Shown: one piece after another, positions 2,029-10,125 of the stretch
How positions within the stretch are numbered: position 1 is the stretch's first letter
Layout: each line of letters starts with the position of its first letter
DNA from: Methanosarcina horonobensis HB-1 = JCM 15518
GTDB lineage: Archaea; Halobacteriota; Methanosarcinia; Methanosarcinales; Methanosarcinaceae
Length of the DNA stretch: 64,000 bases
Assembly (NCBI RefSeq): GCF_000970285.1
Contig: NZ_CP009516.1
Span: forward strand, 4,195,036-4,259,035
Direction of reading: 5' to 3'
The notes under the pieces: generated by a model
Told to the model about the DNA's origin: nothing
Database searches by the model: none
What the model saw: only the letters and a program-made list of their open reading frames with translations
Translations under genes and position numbers: made by a program

Positions 2029-2804
2029 ATTTTTCTCCTGTGTATTTTTACCCGGGAGGCAGAATCAGGTGAGCTTAAATAAAAGCAAACCTAACTTAAT
2101 TGGGCCTCTTAGACCATAATTTATGGAGTTCGGGCGGTACCTGGAAAACACTATCGAATTTCATAAATTCCTCTTTGTTTATTCTTTGTAAATTTTGTGT
2201 TCAAGTTTCTAACAATGCGATTTTTATACAAATTTCGAGCCTGTAATTATTCCTTAACCTTCCTTGATCTTTGATTGTTGGATGATTTGGCGAGAAAGAC
2301 TTATATATAGTATATTGCTCCAATTCATATTCAAATTTGAATATATAAAAGAAGATATGCAATTCTGCAATGCTTTATCCTATAAGATTTATATCTCGAC
2401 GTATGAAAAAATACAGTAAGCATCATTGTTTAAAATTACACTTAAAATATACTTAACGGCTTAATACTACTATTTTTCAGTTCAAGTCCGTAAGTTCGAT
2501 CCCAATTATGGAATTAAACTTAATTTCCAGACAGATTCTTACATTCAATAAGATAGCGGTAAAAATATGCTGCAACTTTAAGAGATTTATATTCAGTCTA
2601 GAGAACATGTCTTTGACTCAAAACATATATTCTATTTAACATGTATTCGATCCAAAAAGCAGGTTCGATTCAAAAAAACACTTAGTTTCTTACAACTTGA
2701 TAAATACCTATTTTCTAGTATTTTAGGGGAAAAAATTTGTTATTTAAGATAATAAATAAGTTAAGAATTTACATATTCTTTTTAAATGTGAGGAGGGTGA
2801 ACAT
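2029..2804. other. Intergenic region, 776 bp, AT-rich
   Basis: Divergent control region between the secreted-protein gene and the radical SAM cluster. TATA-like stretches occur around 2305-2345 (TATATATAG and AATATATAAA). I see no ORF, tRNA or strong palindrome. A short stretch near 2480-2510 (GTTCAAGTCC and GTTCGATCCC) resembles T-arm sequence but has no surrounding cloverleaf. Confidence 0.5.
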
Positions 2805-3929
2805 ATTAATTCGGACATAAATGCCCTGTTTTCACCGCCTCCAACACTTAGTGGATATATGTACGGAGCACAGGAAGCACAGGAAGCCCGAAACTCAAAC
2901 AGGCTTTTAGCCATAAGACTCGAGACAAACACATCATGTAACCTTCACTGCCGTTACTGTTATGCACAGAGCGGAGAGGATTCCGTAAAAATAGCTGACT
3001 TCAATGCCCTCAAACGCATAATATCCGAAGCAAAAGAACTGGGTATCAAATCTGTGGTTGTGATAGGGGGAGGAGAGCCTACCCTCTACCCGAACTTTAG
3101 AGAATTGATTGCCTACATTGATTCTCTCGGGATTGTCCCGATGATTTTTTCAAACACTGTTTTGATGACAGAAGAACTTGCAGAATTCCTGTACGGACAT
3201 AACGCTTCCGTTATGGGAAAACTTGACTCTCTCAAGCCTGAGGTCCAGGACTATCTGGCAGGAAGGGAAGGGGCCTTTGAGGATATTAAAACCGGGCTAG
3301 AAAATCTGATAAAAGCCGGCTTTTCAAACCCTGCAGAGCCTGGAAAACTCCGCCTTGGGATTTCTTTTGTGAGCAATAAAATGAACCTGGAAGAAATTGA
3401 AGAGATCTGGCACTTCTGCAGGCAAAACAATATCTTTCCCAATATGGAAATTCTCACTCCGACAGGCAGGGCAAATGACGAACTTGAAGATAAATTGCTC
3501 ACAGCTGATGAAATAAAAAAGTACAAATTAAGACTGCTGGATATAGACCGAAAATACTACGGGTACGACTGGCTTCCTTACACCCCGATTACTGCAAGCG
3601 GCTGTCTTCAGCATCTTTACAGCCTGTACATCAATATAGAAGGAAACGTCCGGCCCTGTGCGCCTACAAAACTGGATGAACATCCTGCACTCAGGATTAA
3701 CGGGGGATACCCCTATAATGTAAACAGAATGAGCCTTAAGGAGATTTACAACTCCGAACTTTTCACATACGTCAGGAATATCGACAGAGTACTGGAAGGC
3801 AGGTGCGGGAACTGTGAGAATATAGGGGAATGTATAGGCTGCCGCGGATATGCTTACAGTGTAGGCATAAACAATGGGATTGACCCACTCAAAGCCCTGA
3901 GGATGGAGTGCCAGCAGTGCTTCAAATAA
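2805..3929 (+). CDS. Radical SAM/SPASM-like enzyme (start codon probably ATT)
   Basis: The radical SAM motif is CNLHCRYC (CxxxCxxC), followed by VVVIGGGEPTLYPNF, the GGEP SAM-binding strand. The C-terminal third has a cysteine-rich block (CLQHLY, RPCAP, RCGNC, GECIGC, ECQQC) like SPASM/twitch auxiliary-cluster domains. It probably does radical chemistry on a peptide or small molecule with extra Fe-S clusters. The first ATG is at 2859, but no Shine-Dalgarno precedes it. The frame is open upstream, and a strong SD (GAGGAGGGTGA, 2790-2800) sits before an in-frame ATT at 2805, adding 18 residues. It is the first gene of a co-oriented trio with the EgtD-like and amidinotransferase genes. Confidence 0.85.
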   Translation: MNSDINALFSPPPTLSGYMYGAQEAQEARNSNRLLAIRLETNTSCNLHCRYCYAQSGEDSVKIADFNALKRIISEAKELGIKSVVVIGGGEPTLYPNFRELIAYIDSLGIVPMIFSNTVLMTEELAEFLYGHNASVMGKLDSLKPEVQDYLAGREGAFEDIKTGLENLIKAGFSNPAEPGKLRLGISFVSNKMNLEEIEEIWHFCRQNNIFPNMEILTPTGRANDELEDKLLTADEIKKYKLRLLDIDRKYYGYDWLPYTPITASGCLQHLYSLYINIEGNVRPCAPTKLDEHPALRINGGYPYNVNRMSLKEIYNSELFTYVRNIDRVLEGRCGNCENIGECIGCRGYAYSVGINNGIDPLKALRMECQQCFK

Positions 3930-4212
3930 GACAGAAGACAGGGTAACCGAGTTAAAAACAAAAATGACAATTGGAAAAAATATCGGAAAAAGCAGAAAAA
4001 CAGACAGAAAGTGAAAGTCGAATTTAAGAGAAATCATAATTTATAAGATCTTAAAGTGATAAAATAATACAGGATAATGCATCACAATAATAAAAAGGAT
4101 AAATTAAGTTACAAAAGCAGAACTTGTAGAGCAAAACGGGACTGAAACCAAAAAATGTTCATTCAACTCTGCGGGTAAGGAGGCTTTTGTGTAGAACTCA
4201 GAAGGTGGGAAG

Positions 4213-5244
4213 TTGGAGAGTACAGGAAAGGTAAAACGGGGGCAGGCTTCGGAGAACGAAGAAAAAATTATAGCTTCCACAGAGAACAGTATGGAAGAAA
4301 AGATGTGTGAAAGCCTGAAAAGCCATAAATTGCCTGATTATCTCCTGTACACGGGAGTAGGAGGAGCAAAAAACTGGCTGAAACTGGATGGGTCCGGGAC
4401 ATTTCCTGTAGCCAGAAGACTTAAAGACTTTCTTGAAGAAAATATTGCCTCAGTCGTCAGATTCATCCCTGCTGGTATGAGCCTTGTAAGCGTTGGAGTA
4501 GGGAGCGGGGAGAAAGAGCGAATTCTTCTAGAAGAACTGATAAAGAAAAACCTTGCTGAGAGACCTGCTTCCGAAAAGGTGCCTATAATCTATTATCCTG
4601 TTGATATAAACAGTCAGCTTGTAGATCTTGCCCTTGAAAAAGCAAGGGACCTGCCTGTGGAAAAGAAAGGCATAGTTGGCTTTATCGAAGATATGCCACT
4701 CCTTAAAGAACACTGGCGCCTTCCTGTCCTGTTCTCTATTCTGGGAAATACCTTTTGTAATTATGAGCCTGAGTTCATACTCAAGCTCGTCTACGAAAAC
4801 CTTGAACAGGGAGACCTTTTTTTCTTTGATGCCAGTCTTCTCCCTGAACCCGGACCAGGAGAGGATGCACAATCAGTAAGAAAGTCTGTACTTGGTACGT
4901 ATGCATCAAGAGAGAATGCCCTTTTCAACATGTATCCTCTGCTTCAGTACGGAATGGCTCCAGAAGATTTCGATTTTGAATTATTGCTCTCACATGTGGA
5001 CTCAAGGATAGGAGCCCTGTGCAGGACACGAAAGAGCCTGAATATCCTGAAGGATACCGAGATCACAATAGGCTCCGAAACCGTAAGTTTCAGGGAAGGA
5101 GATGTCATTCGCATGGGTTTTACTTATAAATACACATACGATCAGATAACTGCTCTTCTGGATATTAATAGATTTGATATTCTGAGAGCTTTTCTGAGCA
5201 AAGATGGGGAGAATGCAATATTCCTTGCAAAAAAACGTACCTGA
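4213..5244 (+). CDS. EgtD-like SAM-dependent methyltransferase
   Basis: 343 aa, starting at TTG with SD GGTGG at 4204-4208. The Methyltransf_33/EgtD pattern is clear: LPDYLLYTG, a variable region, the SAM-binding loop VGVGSGEKERILLEEL (about 97-112), the acidic strand end YYPVDINSQLVDLA (about 128-141), and SILGNTFCNYEP followed by LEQGDLFFFDASLL. These correspond to the 'GSTxGNF' and 'GDxLLxxxDL' motifs of histidine N-alpha-methyltransferase EgtD. Known family members trimethylate histidine to hercynine. The substrate here is unproven, since no EgtB or EgtC partner is present. It lies 284 bp after the radical SAM gene and 89 bp before the amidinotransferase gene, all on the same strand. Confidence 0.8.
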   Translation: MESTGKVKRGQASENEEKIIASTENSMEEKMCESLKSHKLPDYLLYTGVGGAKNWLKLDGSGTFPVARRLKDFLEENIASVVRFIPAGMSLVSVGVGSGEKERILLEELIKKNLAERPASEKVPIIYYPVDINSQLVDLALEKARDLPVEKKGIVGFIEDMPLLKEHWRLPVLFSILGNTFCNYEPEFILKLVYENLEQGDLFFFDASLLPEPGPGEDAQSVRKSVLGTYASRENALFNMYPLLQYGMAPEDFDFELLLSHVDSRIGALCRTRKSLNILKDTEITIGSETVSFREGDVIRMGFTYKYTYDQITALLDINRFDILRAFLSKDGENAIFLAKKRT

Positions 5245-5332
5245 AAAAACTGCAGATAAGGTAAGGGGTTTTTCAAGAGAGAACCGGAAATTTTTCAAGA
5301 AAAAAAGGAATTTTCGGATAGGGAGGCTTTAA

Positions 5333-6319
5333 ATGGGGGATTCGAGCATGGGCTGCCAGATCGAAAATCTGAATGAAGTGAAAAAAACAGGATCAAGTAT
5401 CGCTTATGGCTGTGACGAACTGGGGAAGCTTAAAAGCGTACTTATGCACACTCCGGGAGACGAACTCCTTCTGGTCAATGAGTCAAATTATGAGCACTGG
5501 CTCTACGATAAAGTTCCTGAGATTTCAGGATACATAAAAGAGCACATGAGGTATCAGGAACTGCTGGAATCAAACGGGGTAAGAGTCTATGAGCTTGCAG
5601 ATCATGTGGAAGAAAATAAAGACCTTATAACAAGGCTGCCAAATCTGACCTTCCTGCACGACACTGCTGTTATTTCAAAAAAAGGAGCAATGCTTTCAAA
5701 AATGCGCCCGCCTGCAAGGGAAAATGAAGAGGTTGTCGTAAAGGAAGCCCTGAACAAGCTGGGAATTCCAATACTCAATGAATTCAATGGAAGCGAAGGA
5801 TTTTTCGAAGGCTGTCTCCTTCTCTCAAAAGATACCGTTTTTGTTGCAGATACGGAACGGCATACCTATCCTTTTATCCTGGAATTTATTTCAAATATCC
5901 TGAGCGAATTTGATGAAATTATTTACGCCCGCATTCCAAAAACCAGACGCTATATGCATCCCGATACCATATTCAACAGGATAAGAGAGGACCTTGCTCT
6001 TGCTTATCTTCCTGCTTTTGAAGAATCCCGTCTGTATACGGAAGGCTCCAGAGAAAGAATCGATTTTGAAGGGTTCATGCGGGAAAAAGGAGTGGAGATC
6101 ATTCCTGTCTCGGACTCGGAGCAAAGCCGCCTGGCCTGTTCTTTTGTCCCCCTGGATAGTGGAACTATCTTTCATTATGATATTGCACTTAATACGGAAA
6201 CAAAAAGAAGGCTTGCACAGGAAGGTGTTGAGATTATTCCTTTCCACCCTGAAGCCCTGCTTGCAGGAGGGGGAAGCCTGCGTTGCCATACATTGAGGCT
6301 CTGCAGAAGGAAACACTGA
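5333..6319 (+). CDS. Amidinotransferase/arginine-deiminase-fold enzyme
   Basis: 328 aa. ATG with SD GGGAGG ending about 7 bases upstream. The pentein fold is recognisable: SVLMHTPGDELLLV near the N-terminus, TFLHDTAVI (about 107-115), EGFFEGCLLLSKDTVFVA (about 160-177), HPDTIFNRI (about 212-220) and AGGGSLRCHTL near the C-terminus. The C-terminal Cys and the His of HPDT match the catalytic Cys/His pair of arginine deiminases, dimethylargininases and amidinotransferases, and the Glu of EG is kept. The usual RDP is HDT and the EGGD Asp is lost, which suggests a guanidine-type substrate other than plain arginine. It is co-oriented with the methyltransferase and radical SAM genes. Confidence 0.8.
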   Translation: MGDSSMGCQIENLNEVKKTGSSIAYGCDELGKLKSVLMHTPGDELLLVNESNYEHWLYDKVPEISGYIKEHMRYQELLESNGVRVYELADHVEENKDLITRLPNLTFLHDTAVISKKGAMLSKMRPPARENEEVVVKEALNKLGIPILNEFNGSEGFFEGCLLLSKDTVFVADTERHTYPFILEFISNILSEFDEIIYARIPKTRRYMHPDTIFNRIREDLALAYLPAFEESRLYTEGSRERIDFEGFMREKGVEIIPVSDSEQSRLACSFVPLDSGTIFHYDIALNTETKRRLAQEGVEIIPFHPEALLAGGGSLRCHTLRLCRRKH

Positions 6320-6404
6320 GCTTTTGAGGCTAGAGGAAAGAATCGAGAATAATCGAGCAGGAACAGAGCACAAGTGAAACATGAAAAAGGAAAAGTGCAA
6401 ACAA

Positions 6405-6831
6405 ACTCGCTTTCTGGGTTTTTTCTTTTCACCTGATAAAAGTATTCAAGAATACATGACGAAAGCATTGTGAGAAAAACATACAGAGAATTTGGATAAG
6501 GTAAAGTAAACATAAAAATTCCTGTTAACGCTGAGAGCAATAGAAACACTGCAAGAGCAAAATCGGGTGAAATCCTTCCCGAAGGAAGCGGGCGGTCTTT
6601 GAAAGGTCTCCAGTAGCCTGTAAGGGAACCCTCAACATCAAGCCTATCTCTTTTCCGGTCAACGTAATCGTTAAGTACAAGTCCGCCTTCGAACCCGAAA
6701 AGTCCGATCAAAACTGCCTTGAATGTTATTTCCTTAGAAAATTCGCCGTAGTTAGCAAAAGCAAGGGCAAGCCCTGAGTAAAAAAGCAAAATCCAGACAA
6801 GAAAAAAATGGGCTCTGGTCATGTCTATCAA
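6405..6831 (-). pseudogene. Truncated UbiA prenyltransferase copy
   Basis: The minus-strand translation MIDMTRAHFFLVWILLFYSG aligns over about 140 residues with the intact UbiA at 7043-7936. It keeps the first Asp-rich motif NDYVDRKRDRLDVE and the block LPYPNSLYVF, then similarity ends after FYQVKRKN, just short of the amidinotransferase stop. The second Asp-rich motif and the last half of the protein are missing, so it cannot be a working prenyltransferase. It is a tandem duplicate truncated at its 3' end. The open frame continues as unrelated sequence to 6175, antisense to the amidinotransferase gene. Confidence 0.8.
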
Positions 6832-7042
6832 AGTCTTAACAGTCTCTTTTACCCCTTCAGTCTTCGTTCCCTCAAAAGGAAAAGAAAAAGAGCGGGAGAG
6901 AAATACAGCTCAAAGAACAGCCTGGGCTAAAAAAGCTGCCAGTTTAAAACAGCTCATCCTTAAAAAAGCCGCGCCTTGCAGCTCTGTTTCAGATGTTCCA
7001 ATTCTGCCTTTCAGGTTCAATAAATCAGGCTCAATTACAGGC

Positions 7043-7936
7043 TCAATAAATGAAGTCAAGAATAATCGAGACCGCATAGATTACCAGAGTTCCGTGGTAA
7101 ATGGGCAGTATCTTCAAACCTGCATCATGACTTTGCTTTTTCCAGAGATAAACGTTTGAACCTGCAAGAAGTACAAAACCTGCGAAAAAGCCGTAGGGGG
7201 CAATAGTTCCAAGCTCCCTGAGGAAGAAAATAGCTGTAAAGAAATGAAGGAGAGTAAAACCTGTGATCCAGTAAATAGCCCCTTTTGCGCCGTAAAGGAC
7301 AGCTATCGATTTCATTCCTCTTGCCCGGTCATTTTCCAGGTCAATAAAGTCATTCAAGCCCAGGTGCGCCATCGTCCAGGGATAGAAGAAAAACATGTAG
7401 AGCAGCATTGTCATGTCAGGCTGCCCGTAGCAGAGGTAACCTGCTGCAGGAAAAAGAGTGAAATCCGTTCTTCCAAGAAGCTGGGCGATAGGGAACTTCT
7501 GGTCTCTTTTCTTTACCTGATAAAAAGCCTCAATGCCGTAAGAGTACAGCATTATTGCAAAAACGTAAAGAGAATTTGGATAGGGAAGTGTAAATATCAG
7601 GGCAGAAGTAACTCCTGCTAACAGGATAAACAGCCAGAAAGCCTTTTTTGAAGAAATTTTTCCCGAAGGAATGGGTCTCTCTTTAAAAGGTCTCCAGTAC
7701 TTTGTAAGGGTGTTTTCTACATCAAGCCTGTCTCTGTTTCTGTCCACATAGTCATTGAGCACGAAACCGGCTTCGAATCCCAGCAGGCCTATCAGCGCAG
7801 CTTTAATGATTAATGTCCAGGAAAAACCGCCGTAATTTGCAAAAGCAAGAACAAGCCCTGAGCAAAAAATAAGGGGCCAGGCAGGAAGAAAGTGAGCGCG
7901 AGTTAGGTCGATATAGGCTTTCAGGGTTTCTTTCAT
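7043..7936 (-). CDS. UbiA family prenyltransferase
   Basis: 297 aa, about eight or nine hydrophobic segments. Both Asp-rich motifs of UbiA enzymes are present: NDYVDRNRD (about residues 66-74) and NDFIDLENDRARG (about 195-207). These enzymes transfer a polyprenyl group from its diphosphate to an aromatic or other acceptor at the membrane, using Mg2+. It lies convergent to the radical SAM/EgtD-like/amidinotransferase trio, behind a truncated copy of itself. Candidate acceptors in a methanogen include lipid precursors and methanophenazine-type aromatics, but the sequence does not decide. Fold assignment is firm; substrate unknown. Confidence 0.88.
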   Translation of the reverse strand: MKETLKAYIDLTRAHFLPAWPLIFCSGLVLAFANYGGFSWTLIIKAALIGLLGFEAGFVLNDYVDRNRDRLDVENTLTKYWRPFKERPIPSGKISSKKAFWLFILLAGVTSALIFTLPYPNSLYVFAIMLYSYGIEAFYQVKKRDQKFPIAQLLGRTDFTLFPAAGYLCYGQPDMTMLLYMFFFYPWTMAHLGLNDFIDLENDRARGMKSIAVLYGAKGAIYWITGFTLLHFFTAIFFLRELGTIAPYGFFAGFVLLAGSNVYLWKKQSHDAGLKILPIYHGTLVIYAVSIILDFIY

Positions 7937-9738: not shown

Positions 9739-10125
9739 TTATTTTTTTGTGACGTTAACGTCTTCTTCGACAGCATCAGCGTCTTCTTCGGCAGCATCAG
9801 CGTCTTCTTCGACAACGTCAGCGTCTTCTTCTTCGACAACATCAGCGTCTTCTTCGACAACATCAGCGTCTTCTTCGACAACATCAGCGTCTTCTTCGAC
9901 AACGTCAGCGTCTTCTTCGACAACATCAGCATCAGCAGCAAGTTCTTCAGCTGGAGCTTCTTCAGCAACTTCTTCACCAGTAACGGCGGCTCCTTCTTCA
10001 GCTACGGGGGCATCTACAGGCGCTTCTTCGGTAGCTCCTTCATCTGTCTTTTCAGCACAGCCGGCTGCAAAGACAACAGTAGCAATTACAAGGAGCATTG
10101 CCATGATCTTTAACATTTTTTTCAT
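9739..10125 (-). CDS. Acidic-repeat lipoprotein
   Basis: 128 aa. A signal peptide with lipobox VVFAAGC (Cys at about residue 23) indicates a lipid-anchored exported protein. The mature part is extremely acidic: an Ala/Glu/Pro region, then about nine heptads of the form DADVVEE encoded by a 21-bp tandem repeat (about 9756-9930 on the + strand). One unit has an extra Glu codon. The net charge is strongly negative and it has almost no aromatic residues, so it is probably an extended or coiled surface polyanion; a cation-binding or cell-wall spacer role is a guess. A TATA-like TATAAAAG (minus, about 10186-10193) precedes a roughly 40-base leader. A hairpin/T-run terminator follows. Repeat number is likely to vary between strains. 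Confidence 0.8.
   Translation of the reverse strand: MKKMLKIMAMLLVIATVVFAAGCAEKTDEGATEEAPVDAPVAEEGAAVTGEEVAEEAPAEELAADADVVEEDADVVEEDADVVEEDADVVEEDADVVEEEDADVVEEDADAAEEDADAVEEDVNVTKK

Follow-up and report, generated by a model that had tools for sequence, protein, structure and literature searches.

The closest described relatives of the gene set reported here are arginine deiminase (ADI; ArcA), the L-histidine N-alpha-methyltransferase EgtD and the SPASM radical S-adenosylmethionine (SAM) enzymes SkfB, AhbD, NirJ2 and BlsE. In ADI (M. arginini numbering), L44, N155, R180, R232 and G392 contact the alpha-amine and carboxylate of the substrate, with R180 and R232 holding the free alpha-carboxylate of arginine, F158 and M268 are packed against its chain, and E213, H269, C398, D161 and D271 take part in the chemistry (PMC3474736). 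In EgtD, the alpha-amine is contacted by N166 and the carboxylate by Y56, Y206 and S284 (PMC8593015). Relatives of all three enzymes are encoded side by side in a 64,000-nucleotide stretch (the window) of the complete 5.02-Mb genome of Methanosarcina horonobensis HB-1 = JCM 15518. These genes, which encode a radical SAM/SPASM enzyme (rSAM), an EgtD-fold methyltransferase (MT) and an arginine-deiminase-like pentein, have in our estimate an even chance of forming one biosynthetic unit in which arginine deimination and alpha-N-methylation would be combined with an rSAM step. The rSAM-MT-pentein combination was not found described in a literature search, outside which most subscription journals fell.

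2805 (ATT) or 2859 (ATG) to 3929, plus strand: radical SAM/SPASM enzyme, rSAM (PF04055, 3.5e-21; PF13186, 3.6e-07)
4213 to 5244, plus strand: EgtD-fold SAM methyltransferase, MT (PF10017, Methyltransf_33, 5.6e-20)
5333 to 6319, likely start ATG 5348, plus strand: arginine-deiminase-like pentein (PF02274, 2e-23)

The family Methanosarcinaceae was surveyed in 112 genomes from 14 genera, and 32 relative loci were fetched for comparison of their neighbourhoods. MT is present in 33 of the 112 genomes and pentein and rSAM in 30 each, all confined to the same three genera. In 26 of the fetched loci the genes are contiguous in the order rSAM-MT-pentein, which with the window makes 27 loci from three genera, including a few copies with frameshifts or contig ends. 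Within the genus, an intact rSAM and a PF02274 protein occur together in 21 genomes and are both missing from eight, with one discordant genome of each kind (agreement 29/31; Fisher p = 1e-5, uncorrected for kinship); the discordance comes from decay of the locus in G103 and from a contig end in G093. The rSAM and the pentein are, thus, retained or lost jointly. All three genes are under purifying selection, with ratios of nonsynonymous to synonymous substitution (dN/dS) of 0.04-0.13, the rSAM being the most conserved (~0.05). Among 393 genomes from the phylum that includes M. horonobensis, the pentein was found only in Methanosarcinaceae.

When 84,980 species genomes were scanned with a pentein profile, only Methanosarcinaceae and one metagenome-assembled genome (MAG) of the Phycisphaerae (JACZKQ010000167.1) were recovered. 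In the latter the genes form a tight operon in which the stop codon of rSAM overlaps the start of MT, and the encoded rSAM, MT and pentein are 63%, 39% and 58% identical, respectively, to those of the window; no UbiA gene is present on the stretch read. A search of 347 genomes of the class of this MAG added two more intact operons (G460, G662) and one pentein fragment (G717). The three Phycisphaerae (Planctomycetota) operons (L103, L111, L112) have the archaeal gene order with genes that overlap or nearly abut, and their products are 60-63% (rSAM), 54-58% (pentein) and 34-42% (MT) identical to those of the window. As the arrangement is found in 27 archaeal and three bacterial loci, the contiguity of the three genes is not due to chance. 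No relatives were found in the viral contigs searched, and the plasmids searched yielded only distant homologues. In an rSAM tree the archaeal sequences form one clade (100/100) and the Phycisphaerae sequences do not, a topology that fits a single transfer, perhaps from bacteria, although the outgroup branches are long.

Alignment to solved arginine deiminases places the pentein close to ArcA (PF02274, TIGR01078; 4E4J, 1LXY). All 12 of the aligned ADI arginine-contact and catalytic residues are kept, including the catalytic Cys-His-Glu, both Asp and every alpha-amino and alpha-carboxylate contact. The ADI residues L44, N155, R180, R232 and G392 correspond to L57, N104, R129, R176 and G312 of the window pentein, F158 and M268 to F107 and M208, and E213, H269, C398, D161 and D271 to E159, H209, C318, D110 and D211. 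These 12 positions are invariant in the archaeal set and in the bacterial locus L103, and L112 has Tyr at F107. Because these residues are kept, the substrate is likely to be arginine, or a close derivative, with a free alpha-amine and carboxylate. The original prediction had listed the protein as an amidinotransferase-fold enzyme, and its residues look instead like those of an arginine-hydrolysing deiminase. It differs from ArcA in its length (328 aa), in a profile gap where the ADI five-helix domain would lie, in its score (95.8 bits against a TIGR01078 cut-off of 489) and in its partners, which are an rSAM and an MT, with no arcB or arcC neighbours seen. It is the sole PF02274 protein in the genome.

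An AlphaFold model of the MT (METHYLTRANSFERASE; predicted local distance difference test, pLDDT, 85) has EgtD structures as all 15 of its best PDB matches in a fold search (4PIO and 4UY6 among EgtD structures; template modelling score, TM, ~0.7), with a structural identity of 15-16%; a search of the MT profile against PDB sequences gave no match. The MT was aligned with two bacterial EgtDs and M. smegmatis/M. tuberculosis numbering was transferred by motif. The alpha-amine Asn (N166) and the Tyr residues Y206, a carboxylate contact, and Y39 are kept, S284 is replaced by Thr, and the position equivalent to Y56 is uncertain. The side that reads the imidazole of histidine is, in contrast, replaced (E282 to G, T213 to N, M252 to K), and these G, N and K residues are invariant in the archaea and L103 and present in L111 and L112. 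Given these replacements, histidine is an unlikely methyl acceptor for the MT; its substrate, we infer, would be a different amino acid, one whose side chain is neutral or acidic, and the ureido side chain that the pentein would generate would fit such a pocket. No EgtB or EanB neighbour occurs in the loci read. The family and fold of the MT could also be taken to indicate an ergothioneine-like pathway, with hercynine synthesis by the EgtD-like enzyme and anaerobic sulfur insertion by the rSAM. The MT, however, scores 49 bits against a TIGR03438 cut-off of 291, its imidazole-reading residues have given way to other, invariant ones, and such a pathway leaves an arginine-type pentein unexplained; we regard it as very improbable.

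The rSAM shares the CxxxCxxC motif and a full set of SPASM cysteines with SkfB, AhbD, NirJ2 and BlsE. Eight Cys in its SPASM part are invariant, and these columns are invariant across the archaea and Phycisphaerae. It falls, however, far below every NCBIfam equivalog cut-off and forms a subfamily of its own. A start at ATT 2805 is plausible, as originally predicted: the residues LFSPPP-GYMYG, encoded before the first ATG, are conserved among relatives, and a good ribosome site (GGAGGGTGA) lies just before this ATT. SPASM enzymes often act on peptides, and the best fold matches to the rSAM, from a model of low confidence (pLDDT 69), are SkfB, SuiB and anSME, a mixture of peptide and small-molecule enzymes. 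The three genes could direct the modification of a ribosomal peptide or of protein arginine, the rSAM modifying the target, the pentein citrullinating it and the EgtD-like enzyme methylating its N-terminus. The pentein, however, retains R180 and R232, which in ADI hold a free carboxylate, a family search of the window proteins gave no match to a PqqD-type domain, and no conserved small open reading frame (ORF) was seen around the bacterial operons or upstream in the archaea, although a precursor gene could lie at a distance. Peptide or protein modification is, in our judgement, unlikely.

More distant relatives of the rSAM occur in other settings. On Sinorhizobium plasmids such as that of Sinorhizobium fredii (NZ_CP029453.1; L115, 8621-13947), an rSAM with 26-30% identity is encoded with an arginase-family protein (a different guanidine-cleaving family), a 534-aa protein and an ATP-grasp L-amino acid ligase. 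A 50-aa ORF precedes this cluster, which has neither an EgtD-like nor a PF02274 gene. In AT-rich Planctomycetota (L133, L134, L136), rSAMs with 36-38% identity are located in ketosynthase-like clusters, perhaps for lipid synthesis. The arginase association hints at guanidine compounds, whereas the ketosynthase association does not.

A conserved sequence precedes the archaeal unit:

2680 to 2703, plus strand: 24-bp conserved upstream element ACTTAGTTTCTTACAACTTGATAA, imperfectly palindromic (CTTA...TAAG); candidate operator for the three genes

The element (ACTTAGTTTCTTNNNANTTGATAA) is present upstream of the rSAM, with zero to two mismatches and at varying distance, in all archaeal loci whose upstream region is intact. 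With at most two mismatches it occurs in 28 of the 32 relative loci; those without it are loci in which the rSAM has decayed, is absent or falls off the contig. A TATA-like run follows the element directly in some relatives. As the window site is the sole zero-mismatch match in the genome, we read the element as a candidate operator of this unit alone, and so as a candidate specific promoter element. Weaker matches occur at the level of a reversed control, and a wider regulon was rejected, since the genome search found no site above that control beyond the window site. The element was not found in the bacterial locus L103.

Taken together, these observations suggest a pathway that would begin with L-arginine, or with arginine altered by the rSAM, and end with a small amino-acid derivative that is deiminated (ureido, citrulline-like) and N-alpha-methylated. 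The rSAM would alter a C-H bond of the carbon chain or couple the chain to something else. The pentein would deiminate its substrate while the alpha-amine is free, since this group is gripped in ADI. Methylation of the alpha-amine, on a substrate with a neutral or anionic side chain, would follow deimination, because the MT pocket has lost a Glu and gained an invariant Lys, and is placed last as a trimethylated amine would be an unexpected substrate for the pentein. In the archaea, the unit would be regulated through the 24-bp element. The product, the order of the steps and the rSAM reaction are all inferred. A wider proposal, to which we give slightly less than an even chance, is that methanogenic archaea and Planctomycetota share a pathway that leads from arginine to a radical-modified N-methyl amino acid or betaine, which might serve as a solute, metal ligand, cofactor or signal and which would have its own 24-bp operator in the archaea. 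Such a small, portable three-enzyme pathway would be defined in genetically tractable methanogens and in bacteria, with a testable substrate class for two of its three enzymes.

Several observations weigh against a single pathway. In four genomes (G081, G097, G099, G101), the rSAM and pentein genes are deleted, absent or broken and the MT frame is still open, with a mildly raised MT dN/dS (0.11-0.24) in these genomes. An MT that survives alone may have a separate role or may reflect recent losses. The pocket assignments in the MT depend on an alignment of only ~20% identity, and the substrate of the rSAM cannot be read from sequence, related rSAMs being adjacent to either arginase-family or ketosynthase-like genes. 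The persistence of the MT, and the ADI-type active site of the pentein, would also agree with three separate housekeeping functions, brought together by chance or by a shared transfer, with the pentein a simple arginine deiminase. The same gene order in two phyla, the overlapping genes in bacteria and the joint loss of rSAM and pentein argue against this, and neither ornithine transcarbamylase nor carbamate kinase genes were seen in the neighbourhood. We consider separate functions improbable and prefer the single biosynthetic unit.

An open MT frame despite a missing rSAM and pentein was seen in loci L047 and L052. In five loci (L055, L057, L058, L065, L066), an otherwise intact and highly conserved rSAM gene has an in-frame TAG at codon 73, which is a Ser codon in the window and specifies Ser, Gln or Leu in relatives; a TAG is similarly present near the N-terminus of otherwise intact MT genes in L054, L062, L065 and L066. 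Decoding of TAG as pyrrolysine may occur in these organisms.

Two features on the opposite strand lie downstream of the unit:

6367 to 6852 (approximate), minus strand: truncated UbiA paralogue, a pseudogene with only about the first 165 residues; outside the unit
7043 to 7936, minus strand: UbiA-family prenyltransferase (NF009511/PRK12871; NF009511, 588.6 bits), a convergent neighbour; outside the unit

The original prediction joined UbiA to the other three genes in a four-gene cluster for a methylated, guanidine-derived, prenylated metabolite. All four enzyme genes are located where it had put them, the ORFs and family matches being in agreement, and a UbiA gene is convergent and close downstream in 23 of the 27 contiguous archaeal loci, sometimes in two copies. 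It is, however, on the opposite strand, not there in L059, L062 and L071, and none was found on the stretches read of the Phycisphaerae operons. UbiA also occurs without the unit (G082, G091, G098 and five genomes of genus g11), and the unit occurs with UbiA >100 kb away (G080) or missing (G104); within the genus, the presence of rSAM and of UbiA are not correlated (Fisher p = 0.50, uncorrected for kinship). UbiA was, therefore, rejected on its distribution as a partner of the unit, and a prenylated product is not supported. Because the bacterial operons lack it, the conserved unit consists of three genes, and UbiA is a neighbour local to the archaea that belongs to another process. The neighbourhoods of relatives thus bear out the contiguity of rSAM, MT and pentein but not UbiA as a constant companion. 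An undescribed cluster with an rSAM, EgtD-like N-methylation and guanidine chemistry survives from the prediction, on the strength of gene order across phyla, joint rSAM and pentein loss and active-site residues, and its conserved core is separated from a mis-drawn four-gene cluster; the membership of UbiA does not survive, and the prenylated metabolite is, in our view, highly improbable. A role in methanophenazine synthesis was set aside, since most genomes of the family lack the unit, complete Methanosarcina genomes such as G081 and G082 among them.

The truncated UbiA gene, which the original prediction had overlooked, matches residues 1-165 of the intact UbiA at 59%, and a full-length UbiA gene is present in its place in seven loci (L045, L053, L054, L060, L061, L064, L074). 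In relatives with two intact copies, the copies are 62-64% alike. With a decaying copy in the window as against two intact copies in relatives, the UbiA family has been duplicated and is now undergoing loss in places. A barkeri transcriptome paper lists UbiA genes, none of which could be tied to the window UbiA. Further along the window, at 9739-10125 on the minus strand, is a small ORF whose product is lipoprotein-like and has tandem acidic repeats (DADVVEE).

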